From: Lachnoclostridium sp. An76
Lineage (GTDB): Bacteria; Bacillota; Clostridia; Lachnospirales; Lachnospiraceae
Direction of reading: 5' to 3'
DNA length: 64,000 nt
Assembly: GCF_002161355.1 (NCBI RefSeq)
Contig: NZ_NFHL01000001.1
Location: 372,001 to 436,000, forward strand
This document shows positions 5,181 through 64,000 of the stretch, piece by piece. A program made the position numbers and the translations under genes. The notes beneath the pieces were generated by a model. It was not told the DNA's origin. It ran no database searches and worked only from the letters and a program-made list of their open reading frames with translations. Each line of letters opens with the position of its first letter. Within the stretch, counting starts at the first letter, position 1.

Positions 5181-5526
5181 AAATCAGGATTTGTGGGGGA
5201 GCCCTTCCGATCGGATGTACGCAGAAAACCGCCCCTTTGATGCGCCTTTCGCGTCGGGCAGGGATATGGCGACGGTGACTTGGAGTAATCTGTTGGAAAG
5301 ACTTAAAAGAATGGGATGCGGCGTTAATTTCAAAGCGGATGCCTGAGCCGCAGGCGAATCTTCCGCTTTGAAATTGTCCTTAGCCGTATCCCATTCTTTT
5401 TACGTCTTTCCCAGATTACGGAACCGGAACCTGAGCCATATCCCTGACCGACGCGAAAACGTCCTGCATCAAACCGACGGTTTTCGGACATTTCTCTATC
5501 GGTTGGTCCCCCGCAGGTACAGATTT
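5181..5526 (+). repeat. Long palindromic repeat, copy 1
   Basis: This ~346-bp imperfect palindrome fills the gap between icd and the tepA-like gene. Its ends are a degenerate inverted repeat: AAATCAGGATTTGTGGGGGA on the left, and on the right the complement of AAATCTGTACCTGCGGGGGA. The centre is a small hairpin (GCCTG AGCCG CAGGC, 5341-5355). It is flanked by complementary arms AATTTCAAAGCGGA (5326-5339) and TCCGCTTTGAAATT (5362-5375), and further out by AAAAGAATGGGAT and ATCCCATTCTTTT. The 127 bases at 5295-5421 recur at 37179-37305 and, inverted, at 62870-62996 with one substitution each. Short frames inside it are by-products of the repeat. The icd stop codon lies at its right edge. The remaining gap up to 5180 shows no clear promoter. 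Confidence 0.9.
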
Positions 5527-6721
5527 ACAGCCGCTTTGCGATCGCTTTGATAAATCCTTCGCTGTTGAGCACTGTCGGATTTTCGATCGTGGTGATCAGC
5601 GCCAGGTCTTTTGTCATCTCGCCTGCCTCGATCGTATCAATGGTTGCTTTTTCCAGGCGGTCTGCGAATTCCATCAGTTCCTGATTTCCGTCCAGCTCGC
5701 CGCGCTTCCTGAGCGCTCCTGTCCATGCGAAGATCGTTGCCACAGAGTTTGTGGATGTCTCCTCGCCTTTTAAGTGTTTGTAGTAATGGCGCTGCACGGT
5801 CCCGTGTGCCGCCTCGTACTCATAATATCCCTCCGGAGATACGAGCACAGAAGTCATCATGGCAAGAGAACCGAATGCGGAGGATACCATATCGCTCATC
5901 ACATCTCCGTCATAGTTCTTGCATGCCCAGATATAGCCGCCCTCTGACTTCATCACGCGGGCAACCGCGTCGTCGATCAGTGTATAGAAATACTCGATGC
6001 CTGCTGCTTTGAACTTCTCGTCAAATTCTGCGTCATAGATCTCCTGGAAGATATCTTTAAATGTATGGTCATATTTCTTGGAGATCGTATCTTTTGTGGC
6101 AAACCAGAGATCCTGCTTTGTGTCCAGAGCGTAGGAGAAGCAGCTTCTCGCAAAACTCTCGATGGATTTATTCAGGTTGTGCATCCCCTGTACGATGCCC
6201 GGCCCGTCAAAGTTATGTACCAGCTCTTTTGTCTGTGTGCCGTCCTCTGCCGTATAGACAAGCTCTACCTTGCCCGCTCCCGGGATCTTCATCTCAGATC
6301 CTTTATACACATCACCGTATGCATGTCTTGCGATGGTGATCGGCTTCTTCCAGTTTTTCACGCACGGCTCAATGCCTTTCACTACGATGGGAGCGCGGAA
6401 TACCGTTCCATCCAGGATCGCGCGGATCGTTCCGTTGGGGCTCTTCCACATTTCTTTCAGGTCATACTCATCCATGCGGGCTGCATTGGGAGTGATGGTC
6501 GCGCATTTTACTGCGACTTTATATTTCTTTGTAGCAAGGGCAGAGTCCACGGTCACCTGGTCGTCTGTTTCATTTCTGTGCTCCAGTCCCAGGTCATAAT
6601 ACTCTGTCTTCAGGTCAATGTACGGGATGAGGAGCTCATCCTTGATCATCTTCCAGAGAATCCTTGTCATCTCGTCCCCGTCCATCTCTACGAGGGGTGT
6701 GGTCATTTTGATTTTTTCCAT
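5525..6721 (-). CDS. icd: NADP-dependent isocitrate dehydrogenase
   Basis: This enzyme oxidatively decarboxylates isocitrate to 2-oxoglutarate, here probably for glutamate synthesis. The 398-residue protein is of the dimeric type II class (also common in eukaryotes), with [15 protein letters not shown] in the substrate region and [16 protein letters not shown] from residue 322. ATG at 6721 has AGGAGG 9 bases upstream. It is the last gene of the citrate synthase-gntR-icd unit, 87 bp after gntR. The gene ends exactly at a long palindromic repeat whose terminal bases include the stop codon. No aconitase gene is present in this window. Confidence 0.95.
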
Positions 6722-23004: not shown

Positions 23005-24804
23005 TCAGTAATGAAGGACGACCGGAGTCCCGGCGCTGATCATTCCGAACAGTGTGCCCGCGTCACCGTATGACATGTTCACACAGCCGTGCGAACCAAG
23101 GCTCTGATACAGGCTCCCTCCAAATCCGGGCTGCCATGTAGCGTCATGGAACCCGTGCCCCTGCCAGGTAAACGGCATCCAGTAAGCCACCGGAGTCCGA
23201 TAGATCGGTTCCCCTGTCGCCGGGTCTTTCTCCCCTACCAGGGTAGCATTTCTTTCCGTATAAAGTATAGAGTATACCCCTGACGGAGTCGCCCGGTCCG
23301 GTGTGGGCAGCCCTGTGACCACATCCGCCTGGAACGCAACGGATCCGTCCACGATATACCACATATGCTGGGCAGAAAGATCCACCTCGATAAATGTAGT
23401 CCCCCAGTCCTGCGCGGAATGCGATGCCGCTGTCTGGGCATAAGCTGGCTCCCTTGTTGCCACCTCGCCATTCTTGATACTGTTGATCAGATTCTGTGCC
23501 TCTGTCTCCTCATCGATCGACCATCCATACGTCCCGCCGGAAACTTCAACTGTCTTGCCGTTGGGCGAGGTGATCGTCCTTGTCGCTCCCACAGTGTCGT
23601 ACGTTGCTCCAAAAGTCGCCATCCACTCCCTGACTGCATCTTCATTAAATGTCACCTGCATATTTTCATCGTATGTCAGCCATGTAGAGATCAGATTTTT
23701 ATCTACTACGACATTTTCCGTCATGGGATACGTAATACTCGCCTTGCAGTACTGATTCATCGTGTCGCATGCTTCCTGCACCTCCGGCGATTCAGCGGTA
23801 TATTTCGGCAGCTTGTAGCACTCCTCCTCAAGCATATCCAGTGTCGGCTCAAACTCCGTGATATGTTCTTTGATCTTTTCGGTGAGGACTTCCATATTGA
23901 CCGCAGTCCCATAAACCTCAGGTTCTACTACAAATGAATTTCCATCAAACTTCGGATATGCTGAAGCAGGTTCCGTCTGCTCCTGTGTGACCGCCTTAAC
24001 AGACTGTATCTTATCTTCAAGCGCATTTTCATCATAATCTACTTTGATACTGACATTCTGGCTGGTCTTTGAAAAAAGCGAAGTGATCCATAAGACCGGA
24101 TTCTGCTTTTTCAGCTCGTCCTCTACACTGGAATCTTCTCTGTAAACCAGGGAAATATCTGCCCCTTTGATCACATCTGACGCATTGTCCAGTTCGATCA
24201 GTTCAAGCTCATAATCTTTAACCTGCTCTTTGAGGTATTCCTCGACATCTGCTACCGATCTGCCGGAGAAGTCCTTGCCATTTATCGTAGTGTTTATAAA
24301 AAAATGTCCGATAAAGAATGCAGAAATCCCGAGATAGATCACGATCAATCCGCCTGCAATGCTCCCTGCGATGATCCAGGGCTTTTTCCCCAGGCCTTTT
24401 TTCTCTTTGTTTTCTTTGTTTGCTTTTCTCGCAGCTCTTCGCCTTCTTCTCCTTTTTCTTTTTTTCTCCCCGTTCTCCACTTCTTCCTCCTGATCCACAT
24501 ACACAAGGTCCTCTTCAGGATCTCCCTCGTCTTCCGCCGGATCTTCCTCGTCTTCCGCCGGATCTTCCTCGTCTTCCGCCGGATCCCCCTCACCTTCTGC
24601 CGGATCTTCATTGCTTTCTACCGGGTCCTCTTCACCGCGTTCTTTTCCCGCAGTATCCTCAGCCTGGTCCGTTTCCAATACGTCAGCTGCATCGTCCGCC
24701 TCTTCCCCGGCATCCTCAAACCCTTCCTCACTGAGGATTTCTATATCTCCCTGATGTGTATCTGACTGTTTTTTTCTTTTCTTTCTGCTCATCAGCCTTC
24801 CCAT
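23005..24804 (-). CDS. L,D-transpeptidase with acidic repeat domain
   Basis: The 599-residue protein should cross-link peptidoglycan by 3-3 bonds or attach proteins to it. A cytosolic N-terminus of about 140 residues is highly acidic with three to four DPAEDE-type repeats, then strongly basic. One membrane segment lies at about 143-169. Peptidoglycan-binding-like YoaR regions follow, and a YkuD catalytic domain ends in SHGCVNM with the active Cys at 574. A nearby in-frame ATG at 24792 is the other plausible start. It lies alone, 39 bp upstream of tgt. A TATAAT-like -10 is at 24833-24838. Confidence 0.92.
   Translation of the reverse strand: MGRLMSRKKRKKQSDTHQGDIEILSEEGFEDAGEEADDAADVLETDQAEDTAGKERGEEDPVESNEDPAEGEGDPAEDEEDPAEDEEDPAEDEGDPEEDLVYVDQEEEVENGEKKRKRRRRRRAARKANKENKEKKGLGKKPWIIAGSIAGGLIVIYLGISAFFIGHFFINTTINGKDFSGRSVADVEEYLKEQVKDYELELIELDNASDVIKGADISLVYREDSSVEDELKKQNPVLWITSLFSKTSQNVSIKVDYDENALEDKIQSVKAVTQEQTEPASAYPKFDGNSFVVEPEVYGTAVNMEVLTEKIKEHITEFEPTLDMLEEECYKLPKYTAESPEVQEACDTMNQYCKASITYPMTENVVVDKNLISTWLTYDENMQVTFNEDAVREWMATFGATYDTVGATRTITSPNGKTVEVSGGTYGWSIDEETEAQNLINSIKNGEVATREPAYAQTAASHSAQDWGTTFIEVDLSAQHMWYIVDGSVAFQADVVTGLPTPDRATPSGVYSILYTERNATLVGEKDPATGEPIYRTPVAYWMPFTWQGHGFHDATWQPGFGGSLYQSLGSHGCVNMSYGDAGTLFGMISAGTPVVLHY
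24520..24606 (-). repeat. 21-bp tandem repeat inside the L,D-transpeptidase gene
   Basis: Two to three near-perfect copies of a 21-base unit, plus diverged copies on each side, encode the heptad EDPAEDE. Such in-frame repeats can change copy number without breaking the frame. Confidence 0.8.
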
Positions 24805-36597: not shown

Positions 36598-36956
36598 TAA
36601 ATTCTGTATTTGTGGGGGAGCCGACCGATTGGTTAAACGTCCGAAAACAGCGAAGCGAGGTTATAGAAGACGTATTCAGCACGGGGGGTGTGGGTGGCTT
36701 CGGCTCCGGGGCTCCGTGGCAGCAAAAACTAAGAAATCCGGGACTATGCTAAAGGCAGAAAGCAGCAGGGAGCAACTCGCCTTTGGCTCAGACAAGCCCC
36801 CTGCTGCTTTCAACGCATAGTTCCGGATTTCAAGTTTTTTCAAGCCCCTCCGCAGTCACCTCAGTCACCCACACACCCGTGCTGAAAGGTTTTCGAAAAA
36901 GGCGCTTCGCTGTTTTCTGGTTTTGCTCAAGACGGAAGGTCCCCGACAAATGCAGC
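36598..36956 (+). repeat. Palindromic element D, different core
   Basis: This ~359-bp imperfect palindrome starts with the same end as the copies at 5.2 and 62.8 kb (TTCTGTATTTGTGGGGGAGC), then has a different interior. Its arms include AAATCCGG-ACTATGC against GCATAGTTCCGGATTT, AGCAGCAGGG against CCCTGCTGCT, and CAGCACGGGGGGTGTGGGTG against a diverged copy ending CCCGTGCTG. AGCGAAGCG near the left is answered by CGCTTCGCT near the right. It closes with GGTCCCCGACAAATGCAG. No supported gene lies inside. Confidence 0.8.
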
Positions 36957-37088
36957 GTTTAAAAACGTAGTGAGAAGGGAACTCTCCCGGAAGTCCGCGG
37001 TCCCTTCCGATTGGTAAAACTTCTTGTTTCGCCGCCGAAGCTCCCCTTTCACCCTCGTTTCGAAATCCTGCATTTGCCTGCGGGGACC
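36938..37088. repeat. Short palindromic element E
   Basis: GGTCCCCGACAAATGCAG on the left is answered by CTGCATTTGCCTGCGGGGAC on the right, and AAACGTAGTGAGAAGGG by a diverged complement near 37030-37060. Its ends overlap those of the neighbouring elements D and copy 2, so the three share boundaries. An internal CCCTTCCGATTGG resembles the subterminal sequence of copies 1 and 2, so it may be a composite of two element ends. Confidence 0.65.
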
Positions 37089-37411
37089 TTCCGATCGGAT
37101 GCGCGCAGAAAACCGCTCCTTTGATGCGCCTTTCGCGGCGGACGGGGATATGGCGACGGTGACTTGGAGTAATCTGCCGGAAAGACTTAAAAGAATGGGA
37201 TGCGGCGTTAATTTCAAAGCGGATGCCTGAGCCGCAGGCGAATCTTCCGCTTTGAAATTGTCCTTAGCCGTATCCCATTCTTTTTATGTCTTTCCCAGAT
37301 TACGGAACCGAAACCTGAGCCATATCCCCGTCCGCCGCGAAAACGTCCCGCATCACATCAACGGTTTTCGGACGTTATATCTACAAGGAAGGCCCCCACA
37401 AATCCAGATTT
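37064..37411 (+). repeat. Long palindromic repeat, copy 2
   Basis: This copy has the same orientation and core as the copy at 5181-5526. The 127 bases at 37179-37305 differ from copy 1 by a single base (the C at 5403 is T here). The outer arms are more diverged. The right end runs into the ptsI stop: GAATAAATCTGG on the minus strand. With elements D and E it fills the 890-base gap between ptsI and the radical SAM gene. Apart from the radical SAM promoter, nothing else is seen there. Confidence 0.9.
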
Positions 37412-39032
37412 ATTCACACTCTCTGATCCGTTTCCTCAGCGGAAGGACCATTGCCGGGGAAACTGACAGCTCGTCCAGTCCCATTTTCAGGAACTCTTCC
37501 GTGAGCTCAAGGTCAGCGCCGAGCTCTCCGCAGATCCCGATCCATTTACCCTCTGCATGGGCATTGTCAGCCGCCATCTTGATCATGGCGAGCACTGCCG
37601 GGTGATGCGGGTCATAGAACGGATCCAGCTTGGAATTCTGACGGTCGATTGCCAGAGTATACTGGGTCAGGTCATTTGTACCAACGCTGAAGAAGTCAAC
37701 TTCCTTCGCCAGCTCACGGCTAACCATTACAGAAGCCGGAGTCTCGATCATGATGCCAAGCTCCACATCTTCCTTGAACGGGATCCCCTCGCTCCTGAGC
37801 TCTTCCTTCACCTCAGCGATAATTTCTTTGATCTTCCGCACTTCGCTCACAGAAATGATCATCGGGAACATAATGGAGATATTCCCGTAAACCGCCGCAC
37901 GGTACAGGGCGCGGAGCTGTGTCTTGAAGATTTCCGGCCTTGTCAGGCAGATACGGATCGCACGGTAGCCGAGCGCCGGATTGTCCTCTTTGTCAAGCCC
38001 GAAGTAATCCACCTGCTTGTCCGCACCGATATCCAGTGTACGGATGATGACCTTCTTTCCTGCCATGCTCTCTGCAACCTGCTTGTACACAGAGAACTGC
38101 TGGTCTTCGGTCGGGAAGTCTGTGTTTTCCAGATAAAGGAATTCGCTTCTGAAAAGACCGATGCCGCCGGCATCATTCTTAAGTACTGCGCCAAGGTCAG
38201 ATACATTTCCGATATTTGCGTATACGTTGATCTTCTGGCCGCTCTTTGTCACATTCTCCTTGCCTTTGAGCTGCTCCAGGAGCGCCTTCTGCTCCAGGTC
38301 TTTCGCCCGTTTTTCCTGCATCTCTTTCATCGTCTCTTCGTCAGGCTCGATATAAAGAGTGCCTGTAAAGCCGTCGATCGCCGCCATCTTGCCGTCATAC
38401 TCCGGCAGAAGGGCCTCGCCCATGCCGATTATGGCAGGAATATTCATCGTACGGGCAAGGATCGCGGTATGGGAATTGGATGACCCATACATTGTCGCAA
38501 ATCCAAGTACTTTATCTTTGTCAAGCTGTACTGTCTCGCTCGGCGCCAGATCGTCAGCCGCGATAATGCAGGGTTCTGTCATCTCTTTCATCCCCGCGTC
38601 AACGCCGCACAGGATATCCAGCACACGCTCGGACACATCCTTTACGTCCGCCGCGCGTCCCTGCATATAAGCGTCATCCATCGCCGCGAACATCTGCGCG
38701 AAATTGTCCGCTGTCGTAGCCACGGCAAACTCCGCATTTACCTCCTGGGTGCGGATGATATTCTCGATGGACTCGAGATAATCCAGATCCTCAAGCATCA
38801 TCTGGTGGATCTCAAAGATCATGGCATTCGCCTCGCCCACATCCTCGATCGCTTTGTCGTACAGCCCTTTCAGCTGGGATACTGCCGTATCCTTTGCATC
38901 CTGGAATCTCTTCCACTCTGCATCTACATCATCGACGTGCGTTCTCTTGATTGTCTTCTCGCTTCTCTTATAAAACATGAGCTTTCCGATAGATACGCCG
39001 CCGAATACACTTTTACCGCTTATCGTAATCAT
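37410..39032 (-). CDS. ptsI: PTS enzyme I
   Basis: Enzyme I takes phosphate from PEP and passes it to HPr, starting PTS sugar uptake. The 540-residue protein has the phosphorylated His at 188 (SSNSHTAILAR), the PEP-barrel motifs GIGLFRSEFLYL and GTNDLTQYTLAIDRQ, and the catalytic Cys in ICGELGAD. AAGGAG lies before the ATG. It follows ptsH by 22 bp. The stop codon sits at the edge of a long palindromic repeat. Confidence 0.96.
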   Translation of the reverse strand: MITISGKSVFGGVSIGKLMFYKRSEKTIKRTHVDDVDAEWKRFQDAKDTAVSQLKGLYDKAIEDVGEANAMIFEIHQMMLEDLDYLESIENIIRTQEVNAEFAVATTADNFAQMFAAMDDAYMQGRAADVKDVSERVLDILCGVDAGMKEMTEPCIIAADDLAPSETVQLDKDKVLGFATMYGSSNSHTAILARTMNIPAIIGMGEALLPEYDGKMAAIDGFTGTLYIEPDEETMKEMQEKRAKDLEQKALLEQLKGKENVTKSGQKINVYANIGNVSDLGAVLKNDAGGIGLFRSEFLYLENTDFPTEDQQFSVYKQVAESMAGKKVIIRTLDIGADKQVDYFGLDKEDNPALGYRAIRICLTRPEIFKTQLRALYRAAVYGNISIMFPMIISVSEVRKIKEIIAEVKEELRSEGIPFKEDVELGIMIETPASVMVSRELAKEVDFFSVGTNDLTQYTLAIDRQNSKLDPFYDPHHPAVLAMIKMAADNAHAEGKWIGICGELGADLELTEEFLKMGLDELSVSPAMVLPLRKRIRECE

Positions 39033-42387: not shown

Positions 42388-42816
42388 TTAAATCTGTATT
42401 TGCGAGGGAGCCTGTGATTGCAGATCCGCCACCGTGACTTCCCCCGCGGTCTTTTTTATGATCTCCCACATCTCTCCCCACACCTCTCTTGTAGGGCATT
42501 GGCCGCACTCTATGCCGCAGTCTGTCTCCCGGGTCAGGCACGGCACAGGCGCGAGCTCCCCCTCAGATGCCTCCAGGATTTCCAGCAGGGTGATCTCCCG
42601 CGCGTCCTTTGCCAGACAGTAGCCGCCGCGGACGCCTCTCGCGGAGGATATAATCCCGGCCCTGCTGAGCATTTTCACGATCCTCTCCAGATATTTTTCG
42701 GACAGACCCCGGCGGCGGGCAATATTTTTCAGGCTCTCCCTGTGCTCACTGTCGGAGTGCATCGCAAGGTCCGCGGCAATCTCCAGAGCGTATCTTCCCT
42801 TTGTTGATACCTTCAT
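42388..42816 (-). CDS. Rrf2-family regulator with Cys-rich loop
   Basis: The 142-residue protein shares the Rrf2 winged helix (STKGRYALEIAADLAMH; RGVRGGYCLAKDAREITL). It has four clustered cysteines, C93, C100, C104 and C107, placed as in IscR-like Fe-S sensors. GAGGG precedes the ATG. Its last eight codons (QAPSQIQI) and the stop are made from the end of a palindromic repeat. Whether it controls the downstream sulfur genes or an isc/suf-type system elsewhere is unknown. Confidence 0.87.
   Translation of the reverse strand: MKVSTKGRYALEIAADLAMHSDSEHRESLKNIARRRGLSEKYLERIVKMLSRAGIISSARGVRGGYCLAKDAREITLLEILEASEGELAPVPCLTRETDCGIECGQCPTREVWGEMWEIIKKTAGEVTVADLQSQAPSQIQI
42390..42412. repeat. Solo end of the palindromic repeat family
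   Basis: AAATCTGTATTTGCGAGGGA followed by GCC matches the terminal sequence of the long palindromes at 20 or more of 23 positions. No second end or core lies nearby, so it is a remnant or a target-like site. It encodes the C-terminus of the Rrf2 protein. Confidence 0.75.
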
Positions 42817-62763: not shown

Positions 62764-63112
62764 AATCTGTATTTGTGGGGGAGCCGTTCTGTCGGCGAAA
62801 CGTCCGAAAACCGTCGATATAATTTAAGACGTTTTCGCGGCGGGCAGGGATATGGCTCAGGTTCCGGTTCCGTAATCCGGGAAAGACATAAAAAGAATGG
62901 GATACGGCTAAGGACAATTTCAAAGCGGAAGATTCGCCTGCGGCTCAGGCATCCGCTTTGAAATTAACGCCGCATCCCATTCTTTTAAGTCTTTCCATCA
63001 GATTACTCCAAGTCACCGTCGCCATATCCCTGCCCGCCGCGAAAGAAGCATCAAAGGGGACCGGTTTTCGTCCGATATACTCAACCACAGGCTCCCCCAC
63101 AAATACACATTT
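62764..63112 (-). repeat. Long palindromic repeat, copy 3 (inverted)
   Basis: This copy is about 349 bp and is inverted relative to the copies at 5.2 and 37.1 kb. Its ends are the best preserved: AATCTGTATTTGTGGGGGAG on the left and the complement of AAATGTGTATTTGTGGGGGA on the right. The core 62870-62996 is the reverse complement of 5295-5421 with only one or two changes. It fills the 430-base gap between the permease stop and the beta-CASP gene; nothing else is seen there. The right end lies two bases from the permease stop codon. Confidence 0.92.
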
Positions 63113-63114
63113 TC

Positions 63115-64000
63115 CTATCTTTCTTCCCGGAAGTAGTTGAGTCCGCAGCTCTTTGGCTGAGCGTGCTCCCTGCTCTGCCTCATGCTTGTGATCACGAGCA
63201 CGAGGATCGTTGCGATATACGGGAACATATCGTAGATCTGCGCCGGAAGCCCGGGGATGTTGACATACATGCGCATGATCGTCAGCCCGCCGAAGATCAG
63301 CGCTACGATCATCCCCCTTGCCGGGCTCCATGTCGCAAAGATAACGAGCGCCACCGCGAGCCATCCGTAACCGCTGACGCAGTCGTGTACCCACACGCCG
63401 GAAGTAGTCACCATACTCATGTACATACCGCCGATCCCGCAGATACCGCCTCCGATGACCGTTGCCAGGTACTTGTAAAGCGTCGTATTGATCCCGGCCG
63501 CATCCGCGGTCGCCGGATCCTCGCCTACCGCCCGCAGGTTCAGTCCCACACGGGAGCGGTTAAAGAACCAAGCCATGACCACAGCCACGATGATGGCAAA
63601 ATATACAAGCCAGTTATACTCAAAGAGGAGCGGTCCGATCACTGGGATATCGGAAAGTCCCGGGATATGCAGGCCGGAGAACGCTTTTTTTGTCGTCTCT
63701 GAGACTGCAACATACCCGCCGGCTTTCTGGCCGATGTACTCGCCGAAGAAATTCCCGAAGCCCGTGCCGAAGATGGTCAGCGTCAGTCCGGTCACATTCT
63801 GGTTCGCCCTCAGGGTGATGGTCAGGAAGCTGTAGATCAGCGCCCCGCCCGCGCCTGCCAGGAAGGAAGTCAGGAGAGCGATCGCCGCTGAGAGGACTCC
63901 GTTCGGATTTCCTCTCGCGCTGATCACTGCCTGCTCATAATAATAGGAGCCGGCAAGCCCTGTGATGGCGCCCATGAACATCATACCTTCCACGCCGAGG
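63115..64000 (-). CDS. ABC transporter permease, sugar/nucleoside type (partial)
   Basis: The frame runs off the window edge, so about the first 40 residues are missing. The visible ~295 residues begin in the conserved EGMMFMGAITG and hold about eight membrane segments. The EAA-like loop GEDPATADAAGINTTLYKYL identifies the BPD_transp_2 fold of RbsC/BmpC/NupQ permeases. The first segment and the GLEGMMF-type start favour the NupQ (nucleoside or BMP-dependent) group. The partner permease and ATPase are presumably just outside. Confidence 0.9.
   Translation of the reverse strand, partial: LGVEGMMFMGAITGLAGSYYYEQAVISARGNPNGVLSAAIALLTSFLAGAGGALIYSFLTITLRANQNVTGLTLTIFGTGFGNFFGEYIGQKAGGYVAVSETTKKAFSGLHIPGLSDIPVIGPLLFEYNWLVYFAIIVAVVMAWFFNRSRVGLNLRAVGEDPATADAAGINTTLYKYLATVIGGGICGIGGMYMSMVTTSGVWVHDCVSGYGWLAVALVIFATWSPARGMIVALIFGGLTIMRMYVNIPGLPAQIYDMFPYIATILVLVITSMRQSREHAQPKSCGLNYFREER

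Follow-up and report, generated by a model that had tools for sequence, protein, structure and literature searches.

The DNA analysed here, a 64,000-nucleotide stretch of the Lachnoclostridium sp. An76 genome (contig NZ_NFHL01000001.1; hereafter the window, in whose coordinates positions are given), carries a palindromic non-coding element in three intergenic copies. We take the genus to be Mediterraneibacter, an assignment made by inference. An earlier note on this DNA had described the copies as a dispersed element of about 345 bp with near-identical cores, and all three, with such cores, were found where it had placed them, namely, from terminal inverted repeat (TIR) to TIR at 5182-5525, as the right half of 36601-37410, and, inverted, at 62764-63111. 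The three copies exist, but the element is larger than was proposed: the middle copy forms the right-hand portion of an 810-bp composite, which has another hairpin at 36601-36958. As judged from the comparisons below, these copies belong to a large and real family of hairpins resembling miniature inverted-repeat transposable elements (MITEs), with a structurally constrained core and a tip that recurs across phyla. The window contains the following parts of this family.

5182..5525, plus strand: copy 1, a TIR-bounded solo hairpin 2; its last base on the right also belongs to the stop codon of the minus-strand isocitrate dehydrogenase gene (5525-6721)
5340..5360, plus strand: apical motif of copy 1, TGCCTGAGCCGCAGGCGAATC
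36601..37410, no strand: composite element, 810 bp from TIR to TIR (hairpin 1, spacer, hairpin 2)
36601..36958, minus strand: hairpin 1 of the composite, whose apical architecture lies on the minus strand
36774..36795, minus strand: apical motif of hairpin 1, TTGTCTGAGCCAAAGGCGAGTT
36959..37063: spacer module between hairpins 1 and 2; many other hairpin 2 copies have comparable sequence on their left
37064..37410, plus strand: hairpin 2 of the composite; its last base on the right also belongs to the stop codon of the minus-strand PTS enzyme I gene (37410-39032)
37224..37244, plus strand: apical motif of the composite's hairpin 2
62764..63111, minus strand: copy 3, an inverted solo hairpin 2; an ABC transporter permease gene on the minus strand (63115-63993) has its stop codon 3 nt from the right end
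62931..62951, minus strand: apical motif of copy 3
42391..42412, plus strand: lone TIR remnant with no partner end in the TIR scan, overlapping the 3′ end of a predicted minus-strand open reading frame (ORF), 42388-42816

Solo, composite and short forms in the genome

The earlier note had proposed searching this genome and its relatives for further copies, and such searches revealed an extended family in both. Allowing up to three mismatches, the TIR matched the window's own genome 95 times and a reversed-pattern control twice. Hairpin 2 was found at 40 or more places in the genome (40 of 77 candidates scored) and hairpin 1, full or partial, at no fewer than 30 (40 candidates scored). A looser TIR scan of fetched stretches of the genome allowed 45 TIR-bounded elements of 41-961 bp to be paired, of which 27 measure 601-961 bp, 4 measure 439-532 bp, 9 measure 344-360 bp and 5 measure 41-160 bp.

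Where the window has the solo copy 1, the closest relative (G030) carries a form of about 0.9 kb with both hairpins; a single site can thus hold either the solo or the composite form. The longest form here is a divergent pair of cores between TIRs, with the motif strands reading minus and then plus, and the solo hairpins are probably deletion derivatives of it. The short TIR hairpins look like further deletion products. Two copies at contig edges (L038 and L040) have swapped arms, probably as a result of misassembly.

Fold, covariation and taxonomic range of the apical core

Copy 1 folds from end to end at −185.1 kcal/mol, compared with a mean of −106.9 kcal/mol for 100 shuffled sequences, none of which folded as well (z = −16.3), in agreement with the full-length hairpin that had been proposed for it. 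When hairpins 1 and 2 are read on opposite strands, they follow one common apical plan. Its first part consists of an arm, GCGTTRA, an arm, TTGYCTGA (or TGCCTGA) and a short G-C stem with a three-base loop; after the stem come GARTY, an arm, a T-rich strand ending in TTTTAGC or similar, and a last arm. Hairpin 2 itself occurs as two types, and the differences between their palindromic cores are symmetric across both arms.

The covariation analysis that had been suggested for the element supported the fold. In a sequence-only alignment of 41 copies, both sides had changed in 18 of 20 pairs, and 97.9% of 820 cells were paired, compared with 35-44% when the strands were slid and 70.9% when they were shuffled; the shuffle contrast is inflated by related rows, whereas the slid control preserves relatedness. 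Alignment A1 leaves out three truncated copies (L038, L040 and L103) and two near-duplicates (L012 and L013). The loops and the apical motif remain fixed while the arms change, both within the genus and across phyla. The earlier note had observed that unpaired bases were as conserved as paired ones and had concluded that the copying was recent, an argument that fails beyond the three copies in the window: pair changes are compensated and loops are fixed between subtypes and species, so that the conservation does not reflect recent copying alone.

Isolated mismatches on the motif strand of the stems were G-U in 52 and A-C in 25 unique contexts in the set from the window's own order, and the contrast was weak (90 to 69) in the pattern-scan set, which is mostly betaproteobacterial. 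The G-U excess leans, though not decisively, towards an RNA read from the motif strand. The "far" sets used for the mismatch counts and for the pair polarities given below included three Lachnospiraceae loci (L251, L257 and L278), none of them among the pairs. A kink-turn or a hammerhead at the apex was considered and dropped because of poor fit. At the gathering threshold, Rfam gave no match in the window, and at threshold in 18 loci it gave rRNA, RNase P and tRNA alone, with no family over the element. Under laxer Rfam settings, microRNA models fell over the hairpins below threshold (40.8 bits at best, compared with a threshold of 137), and above-threshold families appeared in other parts of the loci, an L10 leader in L146 being one example. 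Parts of a group II intron, also above the Rfam threshold, lie at L200:89-705 on a Rhodoferax contig, about 470 nt from the hairpin motif.

A DNA search, in which part of the candidates was scored, detected the element in at least 14 of 61 genomes including its own, all within the genus. In a covariance-model survey of the order with strict filters, 12 of 392 genomes (again including its own), belonging to 4 of 173 genera, were positive. Two of these other genera, in the same family as the window's genome, have compact forms of about 200 nt; at L169, in another genus of the family, right-arm tandem repeats follow a compact copy. A survey of Bacillota for the apical pattern with up to one mismatch found it in 2 of 398 genomes including the window's own, so the spread within Bacillota is patchy.

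An exact scan of genome contigs with a 22-base pattern returned at least 115 stretches, and those listed came largely from Polaromonas, Dechloromonas, Undibacterium and other Betaproteobacteria, with some from Bacteroidota and others. In both Betaproteobacteria and Bacteroidota, the apical motif caps palindromic arms. Because the far loci were selected by the tip, identity of the tip there reflects the selection, and only the flanking arms constitute independent evidence. The arms beside the tip pair at six or more of seven positions in 47 of 73 matches, compared with 6.7 for shuffled partners, and include 33 distinct left arms; these 73 are the listed loci outside Lachnospiraceae, one of which is from Clostridiales. 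In a larger far set that includes the three Lachnospiraceae loci, the arms pair in 69 of 112 matches (7.5 when shuffled). Furthermore, the covariance model, built without these far loci, matched Noviherbaspirillum loci over their full length at E values of 1.5e-8 to 5.8e-8. In the Bacteroidetes locus L274, both strands of the second internal loop, GGCGTTA and TTTTAGCC, are present as well; by eye, most of the Betaproteobacteria shown lack them. In 11 genomes taken from the pattern scan, the pattern (up to one mismatch) occurred 1 to 34 times each, and the reversed control did not occur. A search of phages and plasmids gave no match to the composite and, with a Polaromonas copy as the query, one Variovorax record. 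In copies from Polaromonas and Bacteroidota (L386-L388, L188, L240 and L369-L385), another palindrome, CTTACTTTCTTTTGGCGAAGCAAAAGAAAGTGAG or one like it, comes after the core hairpin.

In the window's genome, neighbouring motifs less than 1 kb apart were arranged minus-plus in 20 of 20 pairs. The far loci yielded nine minus-plus, no plus-minus and two direct pairs, so that inverted pairs were minus-plus in nine of nine; all 11 pairs are betaproteobacterial and six are from Polaromonas, and they are therefore not independent. Within 1 kb, the pattern search of 11 genomes gave four minus-plus pairs and one plus-minus pair (G821), some of which may be the same pairs as in the far loci.

Placement at gene ends

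A codon-usage test in the window's genome placed the stop codon within −3 to +3 nt of the TIR end at 47 of 52 gene 3′ ends, with one base shared between stop codon and TIR at 27 of them; 17 of the 90 element sides had no sequence and were set aside, and this test would overlook any gene that extends into an element by more than 12 nt. The 13 gene starts near elements are all 63-252 nt away. In a cruder ORF test, 30 of 45 left ends and 37 of 45 right ends had a gene end at −6 or closer, compared with 5.3% of random positions; the right end C22:190240 was misassigned in it and counted as having no gene end, whereas the codon-usage test placed it correctly. Gene ends lie within 7 nt on both sides of 14 of the 45 elements, and in these cases, the element makes up nearly all of the DNA between two convergent stop codons.

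The icd gene illustrates how such sites behave. By eye, its protein ends at the same codon in 10 orthologues (L316-L325), and truncation of host genes by insertion was rejected on this ground. What follows icd in relatives is an ordinary hairpin, another element of the same kind, or a different palindrome family, again by eye. At three loci (L323, L318 and L330, from G004, G021 and G002), another palindromic family stands directly after stop codons, at gene ends like those of the main family; at L323 and L318, its apical sequence differs, being of the GGTACATAGG..GCGC..CCAAGTGCC type (by eye, on either strand).

In the closest relative, the element stands at the same stop codon in all nine gene ends that were read separately (14 were searched; two others belong to the copy-1 site of the window, which is also occupied, and three were not seen). 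In more distant relatives, the element is missing at some of the same gene ends, but their neighbours are rearranged. The contents of the conserved sites differ. Among the nine orthologous ends, the orthologous copy was the best match at three, nearly tied at one, and clearly less similar than a copy from another site at two; the other three are not comparable, as the window genome's own copy is a remnant of 41 or 124 bp. In one relative (G010), a single element separates two facing gene ends that in the window's genome adjoin different elements, an arrangement that suggests inversion between element copies. The Mediterraneibacter elements would be long-standing fixtures directly behind stop codons whose contents change between species, perhaps through exchange between sites.

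An element lying between two convergent genes would have to supply whatever ends both transcripts, and the elements may have a role at 3′ ends. One could envision that they serve the host primarily, as 3′ untranslated RNAs or bidirectional terminators kept for ending transcription or protecting mRNA ends, with spread being secondary. The abutment at gene ends, which at 15 of the 45 elements lie on both sides, agrees with this explanation, as do the G-U excess in the own-order set and the observation, by eye, that relatives lacking the element (for example, L316 and L321) carry hairpins of ordinary appearance, with T runs, about 17-50 nt past the same stop. However, the G-U contrast is weak in the other set, Bacteroidota copies do not adjoin gene ends, and a simple scan for intrinsic terminators found none in two elements, although its settings covered loops of 3-8 and 20 counted pairs and such long stems are beyond its model. 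The elements also occur in both orientations relative to genes, which the earlier note had held to argue against a simple terminator; the orientations are as it described, but the argument is weakened by the 14 elements between closely convergent genes. We regard this explanation as rather unlikely.

Mobility and interpretation

Possible traces of mobility came from a Bacteroidota record labelled Cellulophaga sp. BC115SP, in which the core lies inside elements of mostly about 200 bp with 17-bp TIRs. Of its 34 pattern matches, 17 were fetched, and both TIRs were recognisable (up to five and six mismatches) in 14. Eight of these 14 copies have an identical 3-bp TTA/TAA on both sides, compared with 4.1 for shuffled flanks (P = 0.007 for eight or more). 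The earlier note had suggested looking for target duplications; these direct repeats are candidates for such duplications, and inspection by eye of the elements in the window's genome revealed none that was consistent or convincing. In 4 of the 17 Bacteroidota copies (L372, L374, L382 and L383), a small G+C-rich palindromic insert (CGGCCGCCGC..) occupies the same point between two internal hairpins.

Taken with the core, these data lead us to consider it probable, with considerable room for doubt, that the family consists of non-autonomous, MITE-like palindromic elements in which a TIR backbone that differs between lineages surrounds a conserved hairpin core, selected for its fold on one strand. 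Both of the leading ideas of the earlier note, a non-autonomous mobile element and a structured nucleic acid, gain support. The selected form of the core would be single-stranded, either RNA or single-stranded DNA, and a trans-acting protein would recognise it for mobility or processing.

Several results weigh against this interpretation. Besides the lack of convincing target duplications in the window's genome, no empty site, for which the earlier note had suggested looking, was found at the nine gene ends in the closest relative, a result that gives no sign of recent insertion in this species. Only 4 of 26 ORF ends abut the Bacteroidota elements (copies without both TIRs were skipped); abutment is thus not a Bacteroidota property and needs a separate cause. 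The two direct far pairs and the one plus-minus pair depart from the divergent arrangement, and exchange between sites rests on few cases. Neither an autonomous element nor a mobilising enzyme was found by the TIR searches of the window's genome and of Bacteroidota or by the Y1 comparison. The matches examined in the TIR scan of the window's genome were short non-coding elements, lone remnants and two apparent chance matches, and in the Bacteroidota genome, where the TIR pattern was searched with up to two mismatches, the four matches outside the known copies gave no paired TIRs enclosing an ORF of 90 aa. RAYT/Y1 transposases were rejected as the mobiliser, as they do not co-occur with the element and have other palindromes beside them. 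An all-against-all comparison of 540 ORFs near hairpins gave no convincing recurrent neighbour gene; its one large cluster, 97 ORFs from 63 loci, was judged, with no separate test, to consist of ORFs over the hairpin itself.

Alternatively, these could be plain copied repeats whose palindromy is maintained by gene conversion from arm to arm, with no selected structure. High identity within the genome agrees with such a process, as does the symmetry with which the arms of the two types of hairpin 2 differ, but the loops and the apical motif are kept while the arms change, and a 22-nt tip common to unrelated bacteria would not survive through conversion alone, bearing in mind that only the arms of these tip-selected loci are independent. 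We think that this is improbable. Least probable are REPIN-like doublets moved by a RAYT or another Y1 transposase acting on single-stranded hairpins: the divergent doublets, solo derivatives, possible one-strand constraint and RAYT-like genes in several element-bearing genomes are in keeping with them, but three genomes (G417, G390 and G364) bear the element without any Y1 match, the two RAYT-like genes of the window's genome have other short palindromes on either side, a search of loci L141-L285 with a profile of nine RAYT-like proteins from Mediterraneibacter, which could overlook divergent ones, gave no match, and the Bacteroidota TIRs with 3-bp direct repeats point to other chemistry.

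Bacterial intergenic repeats are usually treated as lineage-specific. MITEs and the ERIC, Correia/NEMIS, RUP and bcr1 families are non-coding, dispersed and bounded by TIRs, and form a long hairpin. The present elements share these features but differ in having a covarying core, the same tip in different phyla within different TIR backbones, doublet composites, and the abutment to stop codons described above. REP, BIME and REPIN sequences are known for inverted hairpin doublets, solo forms and mosaic composites, all of which recur here; in contrast to REPIN/RAYT systems, the hairpins are about 350 nt long, no RAYT association was seen, and the Bacteroidota copies have TIRs and 3-bp direct repeats. 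PMC2267715 lists ERIC, NEMIS and bcr1 among families that fold. As described in PMC3110155, the beta-proteobacterial repeat element (BRE) has 29 copies in Polaromonas JS666, occurs also in Rhodoferax and Azoarcus, and in Bordetella is 75-91 bp long, usually intergenic and tandem in several loci. By that description, rather than by sequence, BRE resembles the betaproteobacterial form in host range and length, and may be that form. Literature searches by sequence letters and by topic found no description of the element family, the papers matched by short runs of letters being judged unrelated on their titles; hence, the kind of element is known, and the shared core, doublet polarity and stop-codon abutment are without description in the literature searched.

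A conserved tip in unrelated bacteria may reflect a common partner molecule; the covarying core, together with the doublet polarity in Betaproteobacteria, would imply such an interaction partner and could serve as bait for finding it. More tentatively, and with less confidence than in the MITE-like interpretation, we propose that the apical core is an undescribed cross-phyla structural motif by which a single widespread protein class recognises its targets. Selfish hairpins of Bacillota, Pseudomonadota and Bacteroidota would have gained or retained this core, each on a TIR backbone unrelated to the others, because being bound while single-stranded (as RNA or single-stranded DNA) lets them persist or move, and the Mediterraneibacter host would have turned them into standard gene 3′ ends. 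The exact positions behind stop codons, where sites persist between species and contents change, could also be used to test how intergenic regions become replaced and how chromosomes are rearranged at gene ends.

Two minor observations concern other repeats. The two RAYT-like genes of the window's genome, of about 285 aa (L350, G000:C20:334900-339500; L351, G000:C25:71000-75500), have short palindromes of their own, GGGGTCTGACCCC and GGGGACGTAGTAAAATC, so this genome may contain a second, REP-like repeat system. Within the window, a tandem repeat with a 21-bp unit at 24508-24633 lies inside a long minus-strand ORF (23005-24804) and is probably coding.
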